Assembly (NCBI RefSeq): GCF_026625825.1
Contig: NZ_CP113065.1
Span: 2,294,001 to 2,358,000, forward strand
From: Pseudoxanthomonas sp. SL93
Lineage (GTDB): Bacteria; Pseudomonadota; Gammaproteobacteria; Xanthomonadales; Xanthomonadaceae
DNA: 64,000 nucleotides
Direction: 5' to 3'
This document shows positions 8,704-48,459 of this stretch, one piece after another. Position numbers and translations under genes: made by a program. Position 1 is the first letter of the stretch. Each line of letters starts with the position of its first letter. The notes below the pieces were generated by a model, which saw only the letters and a list, made by a program, of their open reading frames with translations, searched no databases and was not told the origin of the DNA.

Positions 8704-9306
8704 ATGAGAACCCCCGTGTCTGCGTTGCCCCGTATCGCGTCCCGCGCCCTCCGCTCCACTCCTCTGCTCCGCATCGCACGCACGCCAGCCGGCCTGGCCA
8801 TGGCGACGCTGCTGTCCCTTTCCCTCGCTGCCACCGCCATGGCGGCCGAACCGCGCACGGCTTATTACGTGCAGGGTGGCGTGGCGGAGGACGCGCAGTC
8901 GCTGACCGTGGGCGCCAGCCGGGACTGGGCGTGGGAAAAGCAGTACGGCTTCGGCCACGTGACCGGCCAGTGGCAGGGCGAGATCGGCCGATGGCACAGC
9001 GACAACCAGGGCAGCACGCAGGTGGGTATCAGTCCTGCGCTGCGCCTGCGCCCCAACGGCTGGAACGAAGGCTGGTTCATCGAAGGCGGCATCGGCGTCA
9101 ACGTGATCTTCCCGAAGTACAGCACCGAGAAGAAGACCTTCAGCACCACCTTCAATTTCGGCGACCACATCGCCCTGGGCAAGCGCTTCGGTGCGGACGC
9201 ACAGCACGAATGGTCACTGCGCTTCCAGCACTTCTCCAACGCGCGCATCCGTCGCCCCAATCCGGGCGAGAACTTCCTGCAGTTCCGCTACACCCGGCGG
9301 CTCTGA
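8704..9306 (+). CDS. pagL: Lipid A 3-O-deacylase, PagL family (acyloxyacyl hydrolase)
   Basis: A 200-residue outer-membrane beta-barrel enzyme that removes the 3-O-linked acyl chain of lipid A. The signal sequence is in an unusually long N-terminal stretch, with the hydrophobic core ATLLSLSLAATAMAA around residues 33-47. The active-site block FQHFSNARIRRPNPGENF contains His176 and Ser178, matching the PagL catalytic His-x-Ser, and Glu189 is the candidate third residue (one position off the Pseudomonas Glu). The C-terminal LQFRYTRRL fits a last barrel strand. The start is uncertain: ATG 8704 is used here, TTG 8701, GTG 8716 and ATG 8800 are possible, and none has a strong ribosome binding site. 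It follows the efflux operon after a terminator. Confidence 0.88.
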   Translation: MRTPVSALPRIASRALRSTPLLRIARTPAGLAMATLLSLSLAATAMAAEPRTAYYVQGGVAEDAQSLTVGASRDWAWEKQYGFGHVTGQWQGEIGRWHSDNQGSTQVGISPALRLRPNGWNEGWFIEGGIGVNVIFPKYSTEKKTFSTTFNFGDHIALGKRFGADAQHEWSLRFQHFSNARIRRPNPGENFLQFRYTRRL

Positions 9307-9327
9307 CGCCTATCCACGGCACACCCT

Positions 9328-9483
9328 TGTAGGAGCGACGTCAGTCGCGACCGCACGCCAGACGTGTTCACACGACAGGTGTAGCGCGACGACGCTGGTC
9401 ACGCGCGCCGCCGCCACGCTTCACAAGCGGCAGCGTGCATGTTGTTGCTGTTATTCCGGTCGCGACTGACGTCGCTCCTGCAA
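9328..9483. repeat. REP-type inverted repeat pair (REPIN-like), copy 1
   Basis: A 25 bp element beginning TGTAGGAGCGACGTCAG at 9328-9352 is repeated in inverted orientation at 9458-9482 with one mismatch in 25. The two arms flank about 105 bp of unique sequence. Related arms occur at 11774-11857. Dispersed GGAGCGACGT-headed palindromic repeats are common between genes in Xanthomonadaceae. This pair lies between the convergent pagL and lipocalin genes and could act as a bidirectional transcription stop. Confidence 0.85.
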
Positions 9484-9506
9484 CCAGCAGAGGCCAGCCG
9501 CATCCC

Positions 9507-10061
9507 TCACCGCAGGGGCGCCGCCACGATCAGCGGCGACAGGTCGTAACCCATCGCCTCCGCCTTGGCCTTCAGTTCATCGAACAGGGCGCGGTCCATC
9601 GAAGGCTCGCGTGACAGGATCCACAGGTAGTCGCGGTCGGGTTCGCCCACCATGGCCCACTGGTACTCCGGGTCCACCGCGATCACCCAGTAGTCCGCCC
9701 ACACCCACGGCGCCCACGCCAGCCAGTCCGGCGCGAACCGCACCTCCAGCCGGCCGGGATGGCCTTCCACAGGCCGGGCGATGCCTTCCGCGCGTTTCAG
9801 CTCCCCGTCCGCCTCACGGCAGGCATTCAGCACGCCGATCGCGCCGCCGGGCGCGTCCAGCGAATAGCGCGCGGTGATGTCGCTGACGCAGCTCTTCTGG
9901 AACACCATCGGCAGGTGGGCGATCTCGTACCACTGCCCCGAGTAGCGGGACATGTCCAGCTTCGGCACCGAGGTCACCGGCTCGGCGGCATGCGCCGGCA
10001 CGGCGGAGGCCACGCCGAGGCACAGGTTCACGGCAACGGCCAGCAAGGGCAGGCGTTTCAT
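9507..10061 (-). CDS. Outer-membrane/periplasmic lipocalin (Blc family)
   Basis: A 184-residue bacterial lipocalin. The signal peptide runs MKRLPLLAVAVNLCLGVASA and ends near AHA, so the protein is exported but lacks a lipobox, unlike E. coli Blc. The lipocalin fold signature GQWYEIA is at about residues 41-47, with later Blc landmarks VIAVDPEYQWAMVGEPDRDYLWILSR. The family binds fatty acids or lysophospholipids and is thought to help membrane repair. The start at 10061 is chosen because AGGAGT lies just upstream and it gives a clean signal peptide. It probably follows the BON gene on the same strand, with a long hairpin between them. Confidence 0.92.
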   Translation of the reverse strand: MKRLPLLAVAVNLCLGVASAVPAHAAEPVTSVPKLDMSRYSGQWYEIAHLPMVFQKSCVSDITARYSLDAPGGAIGVLNACREADGELKRAEGIARPVEGHPGRLEVRFAPDWLAWAPWVWADYWVIAVDPEYQWAMVGEPDRDYLWILSREPSMDRALFDELKAKAEAMGYDLSPLIVAAPLR

Positions 10062-14599: not shown

Positions 14600-16447
14600 A
14601 TGTTCCGATTCTTCGAAACCCGCATCAATCCGTACCCGAAAGGCGAGCCCAGCACGCCGCCCCGCAAGCTGCTGCCGTTCCTGCTGCACTATTCGCGACC
14701 GCTGCTGCCGTGGCTGATCGCCATGTCGGTGCTGACCGGCGTGATCTCCGCGCTGGAGATCACCTTCTTCGACTACATGGGCCAGCTGGTCGACTGGATG
14801 GGCAGCACCGGGCGCGACAGCTTCCTGCAGGTGCACGGGGAGAAGCTGCTGTGGATGGGTGTGCTGGTGCTGGTGGCCTACCCGCTGCTGGTGCTGGTGC
14901 AGTCGCTGATCATCCACCAGACCATCTTCGGCAACTACCCGATGATCGCCCGCTGGCTGTCGCACCGTTACCTGCTGCGGCAGAGCGTGGGCTTCTTCCA
15001 GGACGAGTTCGCCGGCCGCATCTCGCAGAAGGTCATGCAGACCGCGTTGTCGATCCGCGAGACGGTGATGAAGCTGATGGACGTGTTCGTCTACGTCGTC
15101 GTCTACTTCGTCGGCACCGTGGTGCTGGTGGCGCAGGCCGACGTGTGGCTGGTGCTGCCGCTGGTCGTCTGGCTGGTCAGCTACCTGCTGCTGGTGTTCC
15201 ACTTCGTGCCGCGCCTGCAGAAGGTCTCGATGGCGCAGTCGGATGCGCGTGCGCAGATGACCGGGCGCATCGTCGACAGCTACACCAACATCCAGACCAT
15301 CAAGCTGTTCGCCCATACCATGCGCGAGCAGGACTATGCGCGTGGCGCCATGGACGAATTCATGGTCACCGTGCACGCGCAGATGCGCCTGGTCACCCAG
15401 CTGACCGTCAGCCTGCACACCCTCAATGCATTCCTGCTGGCCAGCGTGGCCAGCGTGGCGATCTGGGCATGGCTGCAGTCGTCGATCTCGATGGGTGCGA
15501 TCGCCGTGGCCATCGCGCTGGTGATGCGCATCCGCTCGATGTCGGACTGGATCCTGTGGGAAGTGGCCGGCCTGTTCGAGAACATCGGCACCGTCGAGGA
15601 TGGCATGGGCACGCTGGCCCAGCCTCTGGCCATCGCCGATGCGAAGGGCGCGAAGGACCTGGAGGTCACGCAAGGCGAGATCCGCTTCGACCACGTGAAG
15701 TTCCACTACGGCCGCGAAGCCAAGGTGATCGACGACCTGTCGCTGGTCATCAAGCCGGGCGAGAAGGTCGGCATCGTCGGCCGCTCCGGCGCCGGCAAGT
15801 CCACGCTGGTGAACCTGCTGCTGCGCTTCTACGACGTGGAAGGCGGACGCATCCTGATCGACGGACAGGACGTGGCGCACGTCACCCAGGAATCGCTGCG
15901 TCGGAACATCGGCATGGTCACCCAGGACACCTCGCTGCTGCACCGTTCGATCCGCGACAACATCCGCTACGGCCGTCCGGACGCCACCGAGGAAGAGCTG
16001 CTGCAGGCGTCCGAGCGCGCGCATGCGGACGAGTTCATCCGCGGGCTGACCGATGCCAAGGGCCGCAGCGGCTACGACACCCAGGTGGGCGAGCGCGGCG
16101 TGAAGCTGTCCGGCGGGCAGCGCCAACGCGTGGCGATCGCGCGCGTGCTGTTGAAGGATGCGCCGATCCTGGTACTGGACGAAGCGACCTCGGCGCTGGA
16201 TTCGGAAGTCGAGGCCGCGATCCAGGAGCAGCTGTATGCGCTGATGGAAGGCAAGACGGTCATCGCCATCGCCCACCGCCTGTCCACCATCGCCGTGCTC
16301 GACCGGTTGATCGTGATGGATGGCGGCCGCGTGATCGAAAGCGGCAGCCACGAGGAACTGCTCCAGCAGGATGGACTGTATGCCGCGCTGTGGCGCCGAC
16401 AGTCCGGCGGCTTCATCGGCGTGGATCTGGAGGATGTCGAGGCTTGA
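14600..16447 (+). CDS. ABC transporter, fused permease and ATPase (exporter type)
   Basis: A 615-residue half-transporter of the ABCB/MsbA-like type that works as a homodimer or with an unseen partner. Six membrane helices occupy residues about 30-340. The nucleotide-binding domain has Walker A GRSGAGKST (near 394-402), Q-loop VTQDTSLLHRSI, signature LSGGQRQRVAIAR (near 502) and Walker B ILVLDEATSALD followed by the switch His in IAIAHRLST. The substrate is not evident. Its closeness to the SoxR-controlled FMN reductase hints at drug export during redox stress, but there is no direct evidence. Confidence 0.95.
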   Translation: MFRFFETRINPYPKGEPSTPPRKLLPFLLHYSRPLLPWLIAMSVLTGVISALEITFFDYMGQLVDWMGSTGRDSFLQVHGEKLLWMGVLVLVAYPLLVLVQSLIIHQTIFGNYPMIARWLSHRYLLRQSVGFFQDEFAGRISQKVMQTALSIRETVMKLMDVFVYVVVYFVGTVVLVAQADVWLVLPLVVWLVSYLLLVFHFVPRLQKVSMAQSDARAQMTGRIVDSYTNIQTIKLFAHTMREQDYARGAMDEFMVTVHAQMRLVTQLTVSLHTLNAFLLASVASVAIWAWLQSSISMGAIAVAIALVMRIRSMSDWILWEVAGLFENIGTVEDGMGTLAQPLAIADAKGAKDLEVTQGEIRFDHVKFHYGREAKVIDDLSLVIKPGEKVGIVGRSGAGKSTLVNLLLRFYDVEGGRILIDGQDVAHVTQESLRRNIGMVTQDTSLLHRSIRDNIRYGRPDATEEELLQASERAHADEFIRGLTDAKGRSGYDTQVGERGVKLSGGQRQRVAIARVLLKDAPILVLDEATSALDSEVEAAIQEQLYALMEGKTVIAIAHRLSTIAVLDRLIVMDGGRVIESGSHEELLQQDGLYAALWRRQSGGFIGVDLEDVEA

Positions 16448-16449
16448 TG

Positions 16450-16630
16450 TCCTTCTCCCCGCACGGCGGGGAGAAGGTGGCCGGAGGCCGGATGAGGGGC
16501 GAGCGCGGCGACGAATCGCTTCGCGTCTTGAATCCGATCTTGGATACGATCCGTCGGCATCAAGAGAACGGGCTTCGTCGCCCCTCACCCGCCTTCGGCA
16601 CCCTCTCCCCGCTGCGCAGGGAGAGGGGAA
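16450..16630. repeat. Large imperfect inverted repeat after the ABC transporter
   Basis: CCTTCTCCCCGC...GCGGGGAGAAGG at 16453-16477 is itself a short palindrome, followed by GGCCGGAGGCCGGATGAGGGGCG to about 16502. A diverged inverted copy (CGCCCCTCACCCGCC...CCCTCTCCCCGC...AGGGAGAGGGG) runs from about 16577 to 16629. The pair would fold into a long cruciform or hairpin. Repeats of this kind (CTTCTCCCC...GGGGAGAAGG with CCCCTCA/TGAGGGG) recur in Xanthomonadaceae intergenic DNA. It separates convergent genes and may terminate both. Confidence 0.7.
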
Positions 16631-31594: not shown

Positions 31595-31813
31595 TCATGC
31601 GTCGACGCGCGTGACGTAGGCGCCGGTGGCGATGACCTGGAAGGTGTCGTTATCGATGCGCCGCACATCACTGCCATCTTCCATCACGTAGCGGAGCTGC
31701 GGAAGCGCCCCGTCCTTCCCCGCACGGGCCTTGTCGGTGGATTCCTCGCGACGGACCTGGATGCGGCAATGCCGCCCGTACTCGTCGCGGGCGGTGAACA
31801 CGTGGGTACTCAT
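31595..31813 (-). CDS. Small hypothetical protein
   Basis: A 72-residue soluble protein, basic in the middle (CRIQVRREESTDKARAGKDGA) and predicted mostly beta (YVMEDGSDVRRIDNDTFQVIATGAYVTRV). I do not recognise the family. ATG 31813 is preferred over upstream in-frame starts because AGGAA lies six bases before it. The gene is directly downstream, on the same strand, of the multi-hairpin region at 31945-32119, so its transcript may carry or follow that structure. Confidence 0.7.
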   Translation of the reverse strand: MSTHVFTARDEYGRHCRIQVRREESTDKARAGKDGALPQLRYVMEDGSDVRRIDNDTFQVIATGAYVTRVDA

Positions 31814-32131
31814 GAGTGATTCCTGGTCGGAGATCGACAAAGGCTAGGCGCGCCGACGTTAAGGATCGCAAAGAAAAACGTGAGTATTCGATGAAACTTG
31901 CTGGCTCGTCCGCTGCCTGACGTGCGATTGAGAACGCGGGAAGAGGAGGGGGAGGCATTGCACCTCCCCCTCCGGGCGCCGTGGGCGCAATGCCGCCAGT
32001 GTGTCGGGCACTGGCGGCGAGTAACCGGACCCCTTGGGGAAAGAGACCGGTCCACCTAGCTGACAGACGGGGGAAACGCCTGTCAGATAGAGGGGGGCCG
32101 TTGCGTTGGGACAACGGCCAGTGTGCGTGGT
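31814..32131. other. Intergenic region holding the hairpin cluster
   Basis: A 318-base stretch without a gene. The part nearest the small protein gene (31814-31940) is A/T-richer, with AAGAAAAACGTGAGTATTCG, and could hold a minus-strand promoter for that gene. The remainder is the multi-hairpin region described separately. No open reading frame is convincing. Confidence 0.6.
31945..32119 (-). ncRNA. Multi-hairpin region; candidate structured RNA
   Basis: This stretch can form successive stems: GGAGGGGGAGG/CCTCCCCCTCC (31945-31955 with 31963-31973, 11 bp, 7-base loop); GCGCC/GGCGC (31976-31980 with 31984-31988); GCCGCCAGTG/CACTGGCGGC (31992-32001 with 32009-32018, 10 bp, 7-base loop); ACCGG/CCGGT enclosing CCCC-TT-GGGG (32024-32051); CTGACAG/CTGTCAG (32060-32066 with 32080-32086), extendable at both ends; and GGCCGTTG/CAACGGCC (32096-32103 with 32112-32119). 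Read on the minus strand several loops carry runs of C. The strand is an inference from the co-oriented genes on both sides; no promoter or clear T-run terminator was identified. Confidence 0.55.
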
Positions 32132-32407
32132 CTAACTACCTTGCCGCGACTCGGGCGCTGCTACGTTCCATCCGGGGCCCGTCGTATCTGATGCGGCCCC
32201 GCAAGCCGCCGTCACCGCCTGACGGATGGCCGCCAGGCAAAGGCCATGCAACGCACGCACGTGGTCATCACTGTCACCGTGCACGATGACGGTGACATCC
32301 GCCTGCCTTACCCGGTGCGTTTCCATGATGACGCTGCTGTGCTGCACGGCATCCCAAGGGGCATCGCTTGTGGCGAGGTCTGCCGTGCACGCGGCAACGG
32401 CATTCAT
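32132..32407 (-). CDS. Unrecognised 91-residue protein coupled to DUF4096-domain gene
   Basis: A 91-residue soluble protein starting MNAVAACTADLATSDAPWDA and containing VTVIVHGDSDDHVRALHGLC followed by a hydrophobic/alanine-rich helix (LAAIRQAVTAACGAAS). No family recognised. Its ATG overlaps the TGA of the preceding gene as ATGA, the standard arrangement for translational coupling, which argues that it is real. It carries no DDE transposase residues, so it is not the second half of an IS5-type transposase. The hairpin region begins 12 bases beyond its stop. Confidence 0.6.
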   Translation of the reverse strand: MNAVAACTADLATSDAPWDAVQHSSVIMETHRVRQADVTVIVHGDSDDHVRALHGLCLAAIRQAVTAACGAASDTTGPGWNVAAPESRQGS

Positions 32408-32871
32408 GCGGACCTCATCGCGCGACTGAGGTGCTTGGTGTTGTTGCGGGCCAGGTAACGGTCGACGAGGGCCTGCAGGTCGGCACGCCGCTGGTCGTCC
32501 GTCGGCAACGTCGCCATGACGTCGGCCCAGGTGCCGTCCTGCGACCACCGGATGAAACGCACGTAGATGCCATGCCACGAGCCGAACTCCCTTGGCAGGT
32601 CTGACCAGTACGCGCCGGTCTGCGACACCCAGAGCACCGCTTCGATGAAGCGTTTGGCGTTGCCCCCGTGGCGTGCGCGCGCCCCGATGCGGCCTGGCAG
32701 GCGCTCCAGCATGACGACCCATTCCGCCGGGGCCAGGCGCTGCATGACATGCCATTGGCTCATGGCGCGCGGACCGAGCCCGGTGGGGAGCGGACCGGAC
32801 ACAGGCCGGAAAGCGCCCGCATGCTCAGCCACATGCTCCATCAGCATTGATGCGATCGGTTCAGCGCGCAT
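32404..32871 (-). CDS. Stand-alone IS402/DUF4096-type transposase N-terminal domain protein
   Basis: A 155-residue protein whose centre matches the DNA-binding N-terminal domain of IS5/IS402-type transposases: RFIEAVLWVSQTGAYWSDLP and EFGSWHGIYVRFIRWSQDGTW. It lacks the DDE catalytic domain, and the next gene does not supply one. It has extra N-terminal sequence of about 45 residues and a C-terminus (DLQALVDRYLARNNTKHLSRAMRSA, cited in part) unlike IS transposases. No terminal inverted repeats or target duplications were noticed. ATG 32871 has GGTGA five bases upstream; GTG 32880 is an alternative. It could be a domesticated DNA-binding protein or a decayed IS. Confidence 0.75.
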   Translation of the reverse strand: MRAEPIASMLMEHVAEHAGAFRPVSGPLPTGLGPRAMSQWHVMQRLAPAEWVVMLERLPGRIGARARHGGNAKRFIEAVLWVSQTGAYWSDLPREFGSWHGIYVRFIRWSQDGTWADVMATLPTDDQRRADLQALVDRYLARNNTKHLSRAMRSA

Positions 32872-33190
32872 TGCAGTCACCGCCGCGTGTGGTCACTTCA
32901 CCATGCATGTTCTTAGAACGACGATTACATTCGCGCAGCTGCACTGCGCTCGACAGGAAAAGAAACTCGAACAAACCGTAATCCCCCTTATTCGAATCCG
33001 ATAGGCAGGTGCGTCCATGCGACCTTCCGTGGCCCGACAACGCCAGCGCCGGAAGACTCCACGCTCATGACCGAACCACCGCGTCGACCGCCATTCATCT
33101 GGCGTGCTTCACGGTCGTGCCACGCTTGCGAAATCCGCACAACACGCGTCTCATATGGTCAGGAATCGTGATATCGAGCACAGTCAGGAC
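32872..33190. promoter_or_regulatory. Divergent promoter region between DUF4096 operon and ECF sigma gene
   Basis: About 319 bases, locally A/T-rich at 32905-33000. Two dyads are seen: GTTCT-T-AGAAC at 32909-32919 and GCGCAG-ctgca-CTGCGC at 32933-32949. Promoters for both divergent operons should lie here, but no convincing -35/-10 pair can be assigned by eye. No gene is evident. Confidence 0.4.
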
Positions 33191-33862
33191 ATGACTCGCC
33201 AGCCGCAGGATCCCGTGCGTACCGTCATGCCCGCGGATGAGCCGGCGTGCATCGGCGATGCGGCCATGGATGACGTGCGTCGCGAGTCCGTCACCCAGTT
33301 GCTGAACCACGCCCAAGGGGGACATTCCGACGCGTGGGATCGCATATACGCGCTGCTCTACCAGGACCTGCATCGCATCGCGCGTTCACAGATCCGGCAG
33401 CAGCGGCGCGGGCATTCGCGTTCGCCGACTTCGCTGATCAGCGAAACCTGGCTGCGTCTGGCCAGCGCCGATTTCAGTGTGGAGAACCGGTCCCACCTGG
33501 TGGCCCTGATCGCCCGCGCCATGCGCTTCGTCCTGCTCGACGAGGCACGTCGCGCACTGGCGGAAAAGCGCGGAGACGGGGTGGAGGTGTTGACGCTTGA
33601 CGAAACCAACGAACCCGGGCACCAGGTGCAGCTGGAACAGCTACTGATCCTGGACCAGGCGCTCAACGATCTGGCAACGGTCGACGCGCGCCTGGCGCAG
33701 GTGGTTGAACTGCGTTACTTCGGTGGGCTCAGCGAGCAGGAAATCGCCGACGTGCTCAAGGTGACCGAACGCACCGTCAGGCGCGACTGGCGCAAGGCAC
33801 GTGCGTTCCTGTTCAGCCACCTGGGTGGGGAGGCAGCCGACGACGCGCCACCCGGCGCCTGA
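33191..33862 (+). CDS. ECF sigma factor of the kinase-linked type (ECF43/TIGR02999-like, EcfK/EcfP-like)
   Basis: A 223-residue sigma factor; the conserved part starts at Met26 (ATG 33266: VTQLLNHAQGGHSDAWDRIY). Region 2 reads GHSRSPTSLISETWLRLASA, where ordinary ECF factors have acidic DAED-like residues contacting RNA polymerase. Here Ser/Thr occupy that position (Thr codon at 33428-33430). Region 4 is VVELRYFGGLSEQEIADVLKVTERTVRRDWRKAR. A membrane Ser/Thr kinase gene follows. Xanthomonas citri EcfK-PknS and Vibrio EcfP-PknT have this layout, and in Vibrio phosphorylation at this place switches the sigma factor on. The start is uncertain (33191 or 33266); no anti-sigma gene is present. Confidence 0.88.
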   Translation: MTRQPQDPVRTVMPADEPACIGDAAMDDVRRESVTQLLNHAQGGHSDAWDRIYALLYQDLHRIARSQIRQQRRGHSRSPTSLISETWLRLASADFSVENRSHLVALIARAMRFVLLDEARRALAEKRGDGVEVLTLDETNEPGHQVQLEQLLILDQALNDLATVDARLAQVVELRYFGGLSEQEIADVLKVTERTVRRDWRKARAFLFSHLGGEAADDAPPGA

Positions 33863-34159
33863 GATCGGCGGGGCCGTCCGGGCCGTCAAGCGACAACAGG
33901 GGAACGCAGATGATGGCGCGGCGTATCCGGCACACCCCATTTCCGTCGCCCGGACAAGGCTGCCGTGGCCCGGTGGCATCCCCGGTGTCCGCTTGGCACG
34001 TTTCGCTGCGAATGTGTTTCATGTTGGCCGGCCGCAGCCCCCTTCGCACCGGCCCGACCCTCGTCCCTGCTTTGCCCCGGGCGGCAATGCCCTGCGCACG
34101 ATTCCTCGACTCCCCGGCTTCGAACATTTACACCATGTTCCCAAGTAGCGTCCATCGCG

Positions 34160-36796
34160 ATGCCTAACGCCAAAGCCCATGCCTTGGAGTTGTTCGACGA
34201 ATTCGCGGACATGCCGCATCACCGGCAGTCGCGGGCGCTGGCGCAGTTGAAGCAGGACGATCCTGCGCTGCATGACGCGCTGGTGGAACTGCTGGTGGCG
34301 GACGCCGTGGAGCATCCACTGGACGCTCCTCCCTTCGGCGTCCTTTCCGCCAGCGAGCCCGCGGACGCCCTGCTGGACGGCAGCCAGCCGGAATCCCGCC
34401 TGGGGACTCAGTTGGGCGCCTGGCGCATCGAACAATTGCTCGATGTGGGAGGCATGGGCACGGTGTACGAAGCACGTCGCGCCGATGGCCACTACCAGCA
34501 ACGCGTGGCGTTGAAGTGCATCCGCGCGGAGCTGTCCTCGCCCGCGCTCATCGCCGCCTTCCTCAGTGAGCGAAACCACCTGGCGCAGCTGGAACACCCG
34601 CATATCGCCACGCTGATCGATGGTGGCGTCGAAGCCAACGGGCTTCCCTGGTTCGCGATGCGCTTTATCGATGGCGTTTCCATCGACCAGTGGTGCGACC
34701 AGCGTGAAGCGGGCATCCGGCAGCGCATAAGACTGCTGATCCAGGCCTGCGATGCCTTGGCGTACGCGCACCAGCAGCAGGTGCTGCACCAGGACCTCAA
34801 GCCTTCCAATCTGCTGGTGACGCCGCAGGGACATGTTTTCCTCGTCGATTTCGGTCTGTCCGTGACGCTGGGCCACGGCGTATCGAACGCGCCTCGCATC
34901 GCCATTTCCAACGGCTACGCCGCACCGGAGGTGCATGCCGGCGCACCCGCCACCGTTGCCGGCGATGTGTACGCGATGGGCGTGGTCATGTACCGATTGC
35001 TGTGCGCGGAATGGCCCGCGCCGCTGCACCCCGTGCATGCACGCATCATGCGTCCCGAGACCCCGAGCCCGCGCCATATGGTGGAATTGCTCGAGCATGC
35101 GGCCAGCGCGGTGGCGCGCATGCGCGGGCGCGGGAACAACCGTCGACTGGTACGCGAAGTGGCCGGCGACCTGGATGCCATCGCGTGGAAATGCGTGGCC
35201 ATCGATCCCACCCAGCGCTACCAGAGCGCCACCGAGCTACGCGATGAGCTGCAGCGCTGGCTTCAGCACCGCCCCGTCGCGGCACGGGCGGGCGGCTGGG
35301 GCTACCGGACCCAGCGCTTCCTGCGGCGCAACGCGATCACCGCCACGCTGGGAAGTGCGGTCGGACTCTCGTTGCTGGGCGGGCTCGGCGTGGCGACGTG
35401 GCAATTCCGGCGAGGCGCCGACGAAAGCGAAGCCGCGCGCCAGATCGGCGACCTGTTCGAGCAGATGCTGGGCACGGCCACGCTGTCGGGCCTCAGCGAC
35501 ACACGTGTTCCCCCCCAGCAGCTGCTGGCCGAAACCGAGGCGCGGCTGCGGTCGCAGTCATTGGAAGGCCAGCCGGCGCTCAAGGCGCGCGCCCTCTCCA
35601 CGCTGGCCCGCAGTTATGCAGCGATGGGCAACTATCCGCATGCGCTGCGGCTTGCGACCGAGGCCAGCCAGCTCGATTCGGATGACCCGCAGCAGAGTCT
35701 GGAGACCAGCGCGACGCTGGCATCGCTGCTCAACCTGCAGGCCCGCCATGCGGAAGCCCGTGATGCGGCACTGGCCGGCATCCAGCAGAACGAGCGACTC
35801 GACGGCGACACCGGCCTGGCGGACATCCGTCTGCTCACCGAACTTGCACGCGCGCACTGGGGCCTGTCCGAGCACGACGTCGCACTGGCGACGCTGGCGA
35901 TGGGATTGCAGGCCGCGCAGTCGCTGCGTGCCGACAGCCTGGCGCAACCCATGGCAGAACTGCTCACCCTGCGCGGCCAATGGCAGGGCCAACGCCTGCA
36001 GTTGAAGGAAGCCCAGCACGACCTGCAACGCGCCGTGGCGCTGTCGGAGCAGACGCATCCGTTGGTCGCCGATGCTGCGCGCGAGCAGCTGGTCGAGATC
36101 ACCTCGCGCCTGGGCCAGCAGGAAAGTGCCATCGCGCTGGCGAGACTCCTGCTTGAGCATCGCCAGCAGCGTCTCGGCAAAGAGCACCCGGATACCGCAC
36201 GCAGCTGGCGCGTCCTTGCCGAGCAGCACTACCGGTTCAACCAGTACGCAGAGGCGCGGCACGCATTGGGCAATGCCAGCACGCTCCTGATGGCTACCTT
36301 CGGCGCAGAACACCCCGAGTACGCCAAGGCACTCGGTCTGCAGGCGCGACTGGCATCCCGCCAGTCGCCCGGAAGCGGCGTGCCGCAGGCACGCGACACC
36401 ATTGCCTTGCTTGAACGGGCGCTCGGACCTCTCCACGTCCAAACGCTGCAGGCGAAGGAAGATCTGGCCAACCAGCTTTTGGATGCCTTGCCCGCGCACC
36501 AGGCCCCTCCCGCCTCCGCGCCCATCAACGAAGCCATCGGCCTGCTGGAAGAAGGCACGCGGGCGGCGCAGCAGCGCAAGCTGCCCATGCCGGAGCGAAA
36601 ACTGGCGCTGGCGCGCGCCTTGATCCTTCGAAACAGGACCCACGCCGACGGCACCTCCGACCTGCCCGCCGCCGAGAGCATGCTGCAGGAAGCGTTGGTG
36701 GAATCACGCCGCTACCTGGGGGCACAGCATCCGACCACCCTGCGCGTGCGCAACGCCCTGATGCAGCTGCGCATGCCGTCGTACGCCCACCCGTAG
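34160..36796 (+). CDS. Transmembrane Ser/Thr protein kinase with C-terminal TPR region (PknS/PknT-like)
   Basis: An 878-residue kinase. After a helical N-terminus, the kinase domain spans residues about 88-370: glycine loop LLDVGGMGTVYEARR (first Gly replaced), ATP-anchoring Lys in RVALKCI, catalytic loop HQDLKPSN (His210-Gln211-Asp212), DFG at 230-232 and APE in YAAPEV. HQD replaces the usual HRD, so this is a non-RD kinase. One membrane helix lies at about 394-417 (SAVGLSLLGGLGVATW). The remaining 460 residues are TPR-like helical repeats, expected in the periplasm as the sensor. It probably phosphorylates the sigma factor encoded 297 bp upstream. Confidence 0.92.
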   Translation: MPNAKAHALELFDEFADMPHHRQSRALAQLKQDDPALHDALVELLVADAVEHPLDAPPFGVLSASEPADALLDGSQPESRLGTQLGAWRIEQLLDVGGMGTVYEARRADGHYQQRVALKCIRAELSSPALIAAFLSERNHLAQLEHPHIATLIDGGVEANGLPWFAMRFIDGVSIDQWCDQREAGIRQRIRLLIQACDALAYAHQQQVLHQDLKPSNLLVTPQGHVFLVDFGLSVTLGHGVSNAPRIAISNGYAAPEVHAGAPATVAGDVYAMGVVMYRLLCAEWPAPLHPVHARIMRPETPSPRHMVELLEHAASAVARMRGRGNNRRLVREVAGDLDAIAWKCVAIDPTQRYQSATELRDELQRWLQHRPVAARAGGWGYRTQRFLRRNAITATLGSAVGLSLLGGLGVATWQFRRGADESEAARQIGDLFEQMLGTATLSGLSDTRVPPQQLLAETEARLRSQSLEGQPALKARALSTLARSYAAMGNYPHALRLATEASQLDSDDPQQSLETSATLASLLNLQARHAEARDAALAGIQQNERLDGDTGLADIRLLTELARAHWGLSEHDVALATLAMGLQAAQSLRADSLAQPMAELLTLRGQWQGQRLQLKEAQHDLQRAVALSEQTHPLVADAAREQLVEITSRLGQQESAIALARLLLEHRQQRLGKEHPDTARSWRVLAEQHYRFNQYAEARHALGNASTLLMATFGAEHPEYAKALGLQARLASRQSPGSGVPQARDTIALLERALGPLHVQTLQAKEDLANQLLDALPAHQAPPASAPINEAIGLLEEGTRAAQQRKLPMPERKLALARALILRNRTHADGTSDLPAAESMLQEALVESRRYLGAQHPTTLRVRNALMQLRMPSYAHP

Positions 36797-46282: not shown

Positions 46283-47524
46283 TCAGGTGCGGGCGGCGCA
46301 GGCCACGATGGCAGGCCGTACCGATGACTGCGCGGTGCGACGCGCCCAGAGGTAAATCAGCAGACCCGCCAACGCCATCGCTGCGCCGACGTAACCGGTC
46401 GATGTCCAGCCGTATCCGGCGGTGATGGCCATGCCGCCAAGCCAGGGACCCAAGGCATTGGCCGTGTTGAATGCGGCGTGGTGCGACGCGGCCGCGAGCG
46501 TCTGCGCTTCGCCTGCCACGTCCATCAGGTGCGACTGCAGGATCGGCCCCAGCGCGCCCATCAGGCCGATGGCCACCGTGGCCAGCAGGATCGTCGGCAA
46601 GCTGTGCGCCATCATCGGGAACAGCAGCAGCACGACGATGGCCCACGCGAGCACCACCCACGCCCCACGCAACTTCATGCGGTCGAACAGCCAACCTCCG
46701 GCGAAGTTGCCGATCACGCCACCCACGCCGAAGCCAGCCAGCCCCAGCGGAATCCACGCGGCCGGGACACGCGTCACTTCCAGCATGGTCGGCGCCAGAT
46801 AGCTGAAGACCGAGAACATGCCCGCGAATCCGATCGCACCGATGCCCAATGCCTGCCAGACCGGCAGGCGATTGAACGCCCGAAGTTCATCCAGCGGTTT
46901 CGCCTTCGCGCCATCCACACCCGCCGGCAGCCAGACCATCAACAGCAGCGCCGTGATGACCGCGATCAGGGCGACGGCCGCATAGATCCATCGCCAGTCG
47001 ACCACCTGGCCCAGCCAGGTCGCCAGCGGATTGCCGATCAGGATCGCCAGGGTCAGGCCCAGCATCACCAGGCTGACGGCGCGCCCACGCTTGTCCGGCG
47101 GGCTGATCGCCACGGCCGTCAACGCGGCCACGCCGAAGTACGCGCCATGCGGCAAGCCGGCGATGAAGCGGAACACCAGCAGGCTGCCGTAGTCTGGCCC
47201 CAGCGCGCTGGCCAGGTTGCCCAGCGCGTAGAACGCCATCAACGCCAGCAGCAACGTCTTGCGCTTCCAACCCGCACCGATGATCGCCAGCAACGGCGCG
47301 CCCACCACCACGCCCAGCGCATACGCGCTGATCAGGTGGCCGACCTGCGGCTCGGTTACGCCCAGCGAGGCCACCATGTTGGGCATCAGCCCCATGCTGG
47401 CGAACTCGCTGGTACCGATGGCAAAGCCACCCAGCGTCAACGCGAACAGGATCAACCCGACCTGGCGCGCGGTCAGTTCGGGGACAAGGGAAGGATCAGG
47501 GGGCGAAACGGAAACAGACGTCAT
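46283..47524 (-). CDS. MFS exporter, DHA1 family (AraJ/YdhP-like)
   Basis: A 413-residue transporter with twelve hydrophobic segments. The first helix segment GGFAIGTSEFASMGLMP (motif typical of AraJ/YdhP-like DHA1 members), the loop 2-3 motif GAPLLAIIGAGWKRKTLLL and helix 5 GNPLATWLGQVVDWRWIY are clear. It is probably an exporter of sugars or drugs. A strong palindromic stem lies 20 bases before its ATG. It is downstream of the OB-fold-like protein gene on the same strand, separated by two hairpins. Confidence 0.92.
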   Translation of the reverse strand: MTSVSVSPPDPSLVPELTARQVGLILFALTLGGFAIGTSEFASMGLMPNMVASLGVTEPQVGHLISAYALGVVVGAPLLAIIGAGWKRKTLLLALMAFYALGNLASALGPDYGSLLVFRFIAGLPHGAYFGVAALTAVAISPPDKRGRAVSLVMLGLTLAILIGNPLATWLGQVVDWRWIYAAVALIAVITALLLMVWLPAGVDGAKAKPLDELRAFNRLPVWQALGIGAIGFAGMFSVFSYLAPTMLEVTRVPAAWIPLGLAGFGVGGVIGNFAGGWLFDRMKLRGAWVVLAWAIVVLLLFPMMAHSLPTILLATVAIGLMGALGPILQSHLMDVAGEAQTLAAASHHAAFNTANALGPWLGGMAITAGYGWTSTGYVGAAMALAGLLIYLWARRTAQSSVRPAIVACAART

Positions 47525-47543
47525 GCCCCATTATGCTGCGTTG

Positions 47544-47569
47544 CAGCAGCGGGGTCGATCCCGCTGCTG
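47544..47569 (-). promoter_or_regulatory. Strong palindrome just upstream of the MFS gene
   Basis: CAGCAGCGGG (47544-47553) and CCCGCTGCTG (47560-47569) form a perfect 10 bp inverted repeat around GTCGAT. It ends 20 bases before the MFS start codon at 47524 (minus strand). It could be a repressor operator or a leader hairpin affecting translation; the sequence alone does not decide. Confidence 0.5.
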
Positions 47570-47582
47570 GAACGCTGCATTG

Positions 47583-47611
47583 ACCCTGCGCCCCGCAAGG
47601 ACGCGCAGGGT
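47583..47611 (-). terminator. Terminator-like hairpin after the OB-fold-like protein gene
   Basis: ACCCTGCG (47583-47590) pairs with CGCAGGGT (47604-47611) around a 13-base loop, 11 bases beyond the stop of the gene at 47623 (minus strand). No T-run follows in that direction, so it may only weaken transcription into the MFS gene. Confidence 0.45.
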
Positions 47612-47622
47612 TCCTTGCAGAA

Positions 47623-48459
47623 TCAGCGCGTCTGCACGCAGTTCTGCAGCCACAGCACGCGCTTGAAGTCGTCATAGCGCAGGAACTGTCCCTTGAACGT
47701 CACCTTGTCGCCCTTGCGGAACGTCAGCACGTTGGCCAGCTGGTTGGGGCGGAACAGGCAGGCAACGCCCACGCGGGGCTCGCTGTCGCCCGGCACCTGG
47801 ATCAGCACCTTGCTCTGGTCGGGAATCTCGAACGAGACGTTGTATTCCTCGCCGTCCTCCTGGACGTAGTCCACGCGGCCGCGCAGCGCATAGTTGCGGC
47901 CCTTGTGGCGCGCGGTGACGGCCACGGCGTTGCCCTTGGCTTCGCGCGCGATCTCGCGTGAGAACACGTACACGTCCTTGACCGTGACGTCGGCGTTGTT
48001 CTGTGTCTTGGCACCCTGTGCCGCGGCGGCACGGCCTTCCTTGCCCCCCTTCAGCTTGGCGAACAGCGTGCACATGTAGGGGCGCATCGCGTCGGCCTTG
48101 GCCATCTGGCCCTTCTCGGTCTTGACCGTCATCTGCACGGTTGCATCCTTGCCACTGGCACTGACGTTGATCAGCGTGGGAATCGCGCGCGTGGTGCCGG
48201 TGGAGCGCTGCTCGACCAGCATGGTGCCGGTTTCCGCATCCTCGGTGATCACGTCCATCTTTTCGGCGATCATGATGCCGCGCACCTGACCGAGCGCATC
48301 GGCGACGGACAGGTCCTTGACGGTGACGCGGCTGGAGAAGTCCGTGCCGGAGAAGATACTGCCGGACTTGCTGAAATTGTCTTCGCATTCGCCTGCCCAG
48401 GCAGTGGGTGCGGCGCCCGCCAGGACAAGGGTGAGCGCGGCAAGAAGCTTATGGGTCAT
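47623..48459 (-). CDS. Exported protein with C-terminal OB-fold-like (tRNA_anti-like) domain
   Basis: A 278-residue protein with a signal peptide (MTHKLLAALTLVLAGAAPTAWA). The first part (residues 25-150) has alternating strands with two Cys; the second (about 165-278) resembles the tRNA_anti-like/OB domain family: DVTVKDVYVFSREIAREAKG, NVSFEIPDQSKVLIQVPGDS and VLTFRKGDKVTFKGQFLRYD. Such domains in envelope proteins have no known nucleic-acid role. ATG 48459 has AGGA upstream. Confidence 0.75.
   Translation of the reverse strand: MTHKLLAALTLVLAGAAPTAWAGECEDNFSKSGSIFSGTDFSSRVTVKDLSVADALGQVRGIMIAEKMDVITEDAETGTMLVEQRSTGTTRAIPTLINVSASGKDATVQMTVKTEKGQMAKADAMRPYMCTLFAKLKGGKEGRAAAAQGAKTQNNADVTVKDVYVFSREIAREAKGNAVAVTARHKGRNYALRGRVDYVQEDGEEYNVSFEIPDQSKVLIQVPGDSEPRVGVACLFRPNQLANVLTFRKGDKVTFKGQFLRYDDFKRVLWLQNCVQTR

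Follow-up and report, generated by a model that had tools for sequence, protein, structure and literature searches.

The window analyzed here is a 64,000-nucleotide stretch of the genome of Pseudoxanthomonas sp. SL93 (NZ_CP113065.1, positions 2,294,001 to 2,358,000). On its minus strand, a DUF4096 gene is followed by a 91-residue ORF, an array of hairpins, and a 72-residue gene, after which comes apt on the plus strand; the other end of the locus adjoins a divergent ECF sigma factor gene. The features of the locus are:

32404..32871, minus strand: stand-alone DUF4096 gene, encoding the N-terminal domain of an IS5-type transposase and lacking the catalytic portion; upstream of the array
32132..32407, minus strand: 91-residue ORF, overlapping the DUF4096 stop (ATGA); outside the conserved unit
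32096..32119, minus strand: SL0, an extra hairpin in this genome with UCCC in its loop; not conserved (MFE; spacer unalignable across 15 loci)
32056..32090, minus strand: SL1, a hairpin closed by CUA/UAG with the apical loop UUUCCCC (MFE, covariation)
32024..32051, minus strand: SL2, a compound hairpin with the apical loop CCCC (MFE, covariation)
31992..32018, minus strand: SL3, a 10-bp stem with the loop CCCGACA (MFE, covariation)
31976..31988, minus strand: SL4, a small GCGC hairpin (MFE)
31945..31973, minus strand: SL5, an 11-bp hairpin GGAGGGGGAGG/CCTCCCCCTCC, terminator-like (MFE, covariation)

The stems and C-rich loops claimed in the original prediction were all found at their positions. 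Five of its six hairpins are conserved, whereas the outermost one (32096-32119) falls in a spacer that could not be aligned across the 15 loci described below. The ECF sigma factor gene (PF07638) and the long gene after it, which we take to resemble a serine/threonine kinase gene, occupy 33104-36796 of the window and diverge from the DUF4096 gene; part of the region between the DUF4096 and ECF sigma factor genes is well conserved in relatives.

BLASTN searches of 61 genomes gave strong matches to the array (E 1.5e-12 or lower) in its own genome and in 14 of 36 other genomes of the genus, and no strong match in 24 genomes from other families of the order (best E 0.004). With a covariance model of the 15 arrays (R1), the same 15 genomes were recovered from the 38 of the genus (the window's own among them), each with one match at 125-161 bits; two of these 15 also had a second, weak match at 23-26 bits. 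Run with stricter filters on 297 family genomes, 18 of which belong to the genus, R1 reported nothing convincing outside the genus, where six matches reached 20.0-29.7 bits, and the R2 search of these genomes gave only weak matches outside the genus, the best at 34.4 bits. Folding of all eight weak R1 matches, and of 10 among the 45 weak places given by R2, showed terminator-like hairpins or unrelated sequence and no array; one such place (L183) has a single CCCC-bearing loop besides. Likewise, R1 did not match the 16 examined loci that have the 72-residue gene and lack the array (L149-L164), and all eight records returned by a pattern search in named genomes belong to Pseudoxanthomonas, with P. 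mexicana and P. japonensis among the species that have the array. The expected extension to Stenotrophomonas and Lysobacter was therefore not borne out, as the strong matches among the 297 family genomes are confined to the window's own genus. Within the genome there is one full copy, and the next best DNA match has an E of 0.10 over 25 bases. A plasmid or phage origin was rejected, because plasmid and phage records contained no match at E 1e-5 and a single-protein query confined to close relatives gave no match in viral contigs.

The minus strand of the array has an MFE of -113.7 kcal/mol; its 200 dinucleotide shuffles averaged -73.4 ± 4.6, and not one was as low (z -8.8). Folded singly, each against 60 shuffles, the window's array and its 14 homologues gave z values of -3.6 to -7.5 and an almost identical series of loops, the exception being the absence of SL4 from the L012 fold. 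We also scanned the whole window on both strands as 4256 overlapping 180-base segments with GC-adjusted energies. Eighteen segments lay below the best array segment, which implies that stability alone does not make the array unique; five places covered by these segments were inspected and comprise two long inverted repeats, one hairpin pair, and two that were not classed. By contrast, at least two CCCC-bearing loops were found in only 10 of the 4256 segments, 4 of which are at the array. Hence, the claim that this region is unlike every other in the window was too strong with respect to energy, but the presence of more than one CCCC loop, together with conservation, is distinctive of the array. 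Three places in the window besides the array were recorded for their structure. A very stable long inverted repeat at 9301-9510 has arms with AGGAGCGACGTCAGTCGCGACC-like sequence, presumably typical of REP-like repeats in this bacterial family; a long inverted repeat at 16441-16620 has arms of the CTCTCCC...GGGAGA type and looks like a MITE or similar element; and two strong adjoining hairpins at 47461-47700 are among the most stable segments after GC adjustment.

Covariation was assessed on a MAFFT alignment of the 15 arrays (A1) that was not fitted to any structure. Paired cells made up 97.0% of 624, and this value fell to 43-54% when the 3' partners were slid by 1 to 3 columns, a comparison that favors the tested structure, which came from the consensus of the same sequences. 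Changes on both sides occurred in 16 of 42 pairs compared to 7.7 ± 1.7 in shuffled alignments, and in 45 cells compared to 14.0 ± 2.9; none of 500 shuffles reached any of the five covariation measures, although related sequences can exceed shuffles. Because of these two biases, we regard the double changes in SL1, SL2, and SL3 as the main covariation evidence. The alignment also contains 49 G-U cells and 5 A-C cells, which implies selection on a minus-strand RNA, the strand that had been proposed. Thus, judged by its conservation pattern, the array is a structured RNA specified by the minus strand. Homologous loci whose stems are not conserved or do not covary had been named beforehand as an observation that would refute the proposal of a minus-strand structured RNA with sX13-like C-rich loops. 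The proposal withstood this test, as homologous loci exist and their stems covary.

The hairpins differ in how much they contribute. In SL1 (helix 1), both-side changes were found in 5 of 10 pairs and the loop contained CCCC at 15 of 15 loci. The same loop motif was present at 15 of 15 loci in SL2 (helices 2 and 3), with both-side changes in 4 of 6 pairs, even though its outer helix (helix 2), with only 83.3% of cells paired, is the weakest among the six helices. SL3 (helix 4) showed both-side changes in 5 of 10 pairs, and its CCCGACA loop was kept at 14 of 15 loci, with TCCGACAC in L022; TGCCCGACACA of SL3 occurs once in the genome. In the 15 single folds the loops read (N)CCCC in SL1 and CCCC, flanked by at most a few bases, in SL2. 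Across SL1-SL3, 12 of 18 gap-free loop columns are invariant compared to 11 of 45 stem columns. As the loop columns are mostly invariant and the stem columns mostly not, the loops are what is kept. Covariation is uninformative for SL4, in which four of five pairs are invariant and the loop has three or four bases, and says little for SL5, which is 100% paired with 8 of 11 pairs invariant and both-side changes in 2. The SL5 loop was GCAAU or CAA in the 15 single folds, and the hairpin is followed by at least four T at 12 of 15 loci, the exceptions being the window (L001), L009, and L012. The window's own tail (CTCTTCCC) has no good T run, and a simple consensus terminator scan gave SL5 in the window no terminator score. 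In sequence, then, this last hairpin looks like a terminator, most clearly in the relatives.

Rfam 15 gave no match at the gathering score anywhere in the 64-kb window, in agreement with the predicted newness of the array. The RNA to which it had been likened is sX13, an sRNA of the Xanthomonadaceae, which in the account of PMC3771888 is strongly structured, with three stems bearing 4C, 4C, and 5C loops, and represses mRNAs with G-rich motifs in a loop-dependent manner. The likeness holds for the design: the array also has three main C-loop stems, with at least 4C, 4C, and 3C, and the C-rich loops are the conserved ones listed above. However, SL3 has CCC rather than CCCC at 14 of 15 loci, and the likeness is one of design, not proof of kinship. 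Both RNAs also end alike, since the last stem of sX13 is followed in the alignment by UUUU, read as a terminator, and the array ends in the terminator-like SL5. Unlike sX13, the array has five conserved hairpins, of which SL4 and SL5 lack an sX13 counterpart, and among the genomes searched it was seen only in Pseudoxanthomonas. It is also located differently: sX13 is found at polA, and the array lies between DUF4096, to which it is linked, and the 72-residue gene next to apt. The sX13 family (RF02232) had no match in the window; the same held for 31800-32300 with E values of up to 5 and for five related loci with E values of up to 0.1. The genome's own sX13 was found downstream of polA (L099 1190-1306, minus strand, 83.2 bits). 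Membership of the array in sX13 was rejected on these grounds. A further feature of sX13 itself is that it represses, independently of Hfq, mRNAs that carry a G-rich motif close to their start. The array also resembles alpha-r7, described in PMC3771888 as three stem-loops with apical C-rich motifs, although the match to its family (RF02342) is weak (21 bits, E 0.048, gathering score 60), as is that to BjrC80 (RF02354; 28 bits, E 0.0018, gathering score 80); neither family matched the five related loci at E up to 0.1. A literature search of listings and abstract openings found no paper on an RNA beside DUF4096.

The protein encoded next to the array matches PF13340 (E 1.2e-16) and positions 5-100 of the 258 of the IS5-family transposase model NF033580. 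It thus resembles the N-terminal part of such transposases, but the catalytic part is absent, the score (66.9 bits) is below the family cut-off of 110, and the gene is kept in place in the chromosomes of 15 genomes. Over 105 pairs, the 125-residue core has a median dN/dS of 0.10. By these sequence criteria, the gene is a domesticated IS5-type domain under purifying selection. DUF4096 is by descent part of a DNA-handling transposase, and the protein is likely, by that descent, a DNA-binding regulator. The sequence had no match in the PDB at E 10, and a predicted structure (7 sequences, mean pLDDT 70.5) had no PDB fold match at E 0.001, a result that is neutral on RNA binding. Among the 38 genomes of the genus, orthologues with at least 69% identity occur in exactly the 15 with the array; 11 of the other 23 have a relative with no more than 52% identity, and 12 have none at E 0.001. 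All 15 orthologous proteins fall on one side of a tree branch (support 92/91), so the 15 genomes may represent one lineage and their co-occurrence should not be counted as 15 independent events. The 72-residue gene lies beside the array in 14 of 15 genomes and is present in 34 of 38, which implies that it is independent of the array. A second stand-alone DUF4096 gene in the window's genome (G000:C1:3066360-3066671; L095) has 43% identity and no C-loop array; a second DUF4096 match is present in all 15 array genomes, with array status viewed for part of them.

Searches of the other 14 array loci did not find the 91-residue ORF. The proposed DUF4096 two-gene operon was accordingly upheld for DUF4096, which accompanies the array at 15 of 15 loci, and not for the 91-residue gene, present at 1 of 15, though a distant homologue follows another DUF4096 gene. 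In the genus search the best match to the ORF elsewhere (E 8.4e-4) lies inside a longer frame of G023 away from the array, and a 57-residue ORF directly after a distant DUF4096 gene in G005 (L089) matched at E 0.06. This pair was first spotted by eye and tested afterwards, with a BLASTP E of 1e-6 in a single comparison and a score of 66 compared to 23.3 ± 4.5 for shuffled sequences, 0 of 2000 of which scored as high. The 91-residue ORF is perhaps an accessory gene. At the start of DUF4096, a short ORF beginning MR(S/N)LK, a narrow motif, precedes or overlaps the gene in at least 8 of the 15 array loci (L009, L010, L011, L014, L015, L018, L019, and L021); it was not found in the window.

Applied to fetched loci of more distant DUF4096 genes, R1 detected three further arrays in the genomes G034, G027, and G002 (L084-L086), which were seen in this search and not reported by the genus-wide one. 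Their scores of 33.2, 30.2, and 25.9 bits count against the 100,867 bases searched, chance matches in whole genomes reaching about 30 bits. In the same search, a weak match at L089 (17.8 bits) was left uncounted, and 12 matches of 15-17 bits corresponded to SL5 as it reads on the complementary strand. Each of the three arrays is located upstream of a divergent DUF4096 gene, at a distance of no more than about 100 bases and on the strand of that gene. Their loops are C-rich, they include a small GC hairpin and another that resembles a terminator, and both-side changes occurred in 8 of 53 pairs among three sequences, two of them near-identical. The 72-residue gene is on a contig other than that of the array in all three genomes, which implies a different genomic place; the genes around the upstream array were listed for one of the three (L130). 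We also counted CCCC-loop hairpins around 45 DUF4096 genes. At least two were present downstream on the same strand at 15 of 15 orthologous loci, and upstream at 3 of 15 other loci of the genus (15 of 30 non-orthologous matches were fetched). Outside the genus, two were present at none of 15 loci, one from each of 15 of the 21 matching genomes, and on the opposite strand at least two occurred at 2 of the 45. In the protein tree, the DUF4096 genes of the three upstream arrays form one supported clade with L087 (G032), which has no C4-loop array, and the tree leaves the relation of this clade to that of the window undecided. The link between the array and DUF4096 may have arisen twice, or an old unit may have been lost in places.

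Four other readings were weighed against the one that we prefer, a trans-acting sRNA. The array could be a cis-acting 3' UTR from which no sRNA is released and whose whole role is to protect the DUF4096 mRNA, or to end it, and to shield the gene that follows. Consistent with this idea, the array follows DUF4096 on the same strand at 15 of 15 loci and has a terminator-like end, and a strict sigma-70-like promoter scan of 31700-33200 found no separate promoter (0.3 expected in shuffles). Given this result and the lack of conservation of the spacer between DUF4096 and SL1 across the 15 loci, a separate promoter for the array is hypothetical. However, a single terminator hairpin would suffice for such a role, protection does not explain fixed CCCC and CCCGACA loops amid changing stems, and three genomes have the array ahead of the DUF4096 gene, closed by a separate terminator-like hairpin. 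We give a purely cis-acting role a modest chance. The array could instead be the RNA partner of the DUF4096 protein in a protein-RNA unit, bound by the protein or by a complex containing it and serving as its regulator or scaffold. The presence of array and orthologue in the same 15 of 38 genomes, the similar array that three additional genomes have next to a divergent DUF4096 gene at another place and in another order, and the purifying selection on DUF4096 all fit this reading, but a syntenic block inherited once would equally give 15 of 15, and no array was found at 12 of 15 other DUF4096 loci examined in the genus or at 15 of 15 outside it. We consider such a partnership unlikely.

RsmA/CsrA-sequestering RNAs carry GGA loops on the transcribed strand, and a functional plus strand would present loops of GGGG or GGGGA. 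Read on the plus strand, the SL1 and SL2 loops do hold GGGG, and this strand folds better than its shuffles (z -5.1). However, this fold is weaker than that of the minus strand (z -8.8), G-U pairs are kept in 49 cells and their plus-strand counterparts in 5, and the T run of the terminator-like hairpin belongs to the minus strand. A plus-strand RNA of this type was rejected, since the strand with conserved pairing has C, not G, in its loops, and we regard a functional plus strand as highly improbable. The neighboring gene derives from a transposase and the GC content is high, which would fit a remnant of a repeat or mobile element (REP cluster, MITE, or IS end) or a chance structure in GC-rich DNA. 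Such an origin is barely conceivable: the single full copy and the strong covariation rule out a REP or MITE, the array is flanked by DUF4096 on one constant side in 15 of 15 genomes and by the 72-residue gene on the opposite side in 14 of 15, and plasmid and phage records gave no match at E 1e-5.

The preferred reading, an sX13-like sRNA whose C-rich loops bind G-rich mRNA sites, is in our judgment reasonably probable. The structure, the strand, the conserved loops, the terminator shape in most relatives, and the linkage to DUF4096 can be read from the aligned loci, and we infer that the array is transcribed and released and that its loops bind G-rich mRNA. According to this model, a structured RNA of about 150 nt would be produced from the minus strand, either within a DUF4096 transcript, of which it would form the 3' portion, or from a separate promoter. 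Short C-rich loops would be exposed on the three larger stems, and the last hairpin would terminate transcription. The RNA would probably act in trans, as sX13 does, with the CCCC loops starting to pair at G-rich stretches near ribosome-binding sites and so blocking translation. The simplest use of the linkage, as we read it, would be that DUF4096 controls the array or that the array controls DUF4096. A further idea, for which we hold out a rather small chance, is that a stand-alone domesticated DUF4096 protein and a C-rich multi-hairpin RNA form a compact unit that has stayed together despite a relocation and a reversal of gene order; in this unit, the protein would bind or control the RNA and the RNA would tune the translation of many mRNAs with G-rich ribosome-binding sites.

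Thus, we conclude that the array is a real structured RNA that is new to Rfam, has been seen in one genus only, follows a known design, and has a protein partner of an unusual kind. The array appears to represent a new family of small regulatory RNAs that may work like sX13, and it adds an RNA family with strong covariation, no Rfam 15 match, and C-rich loops of the sX13 type. One genome accordingly contains two C-loop RNAs at unrelated loci, and it is unusual that one of them steadily accompanies a transposase-derived gene, in either of two gene orders. Should the protein and the RNA cooperate, they would represent a new kind of domesticated-transposase regulator; if they do not, the array would still be a useful case for the choice of targets by C-loop RNAs.
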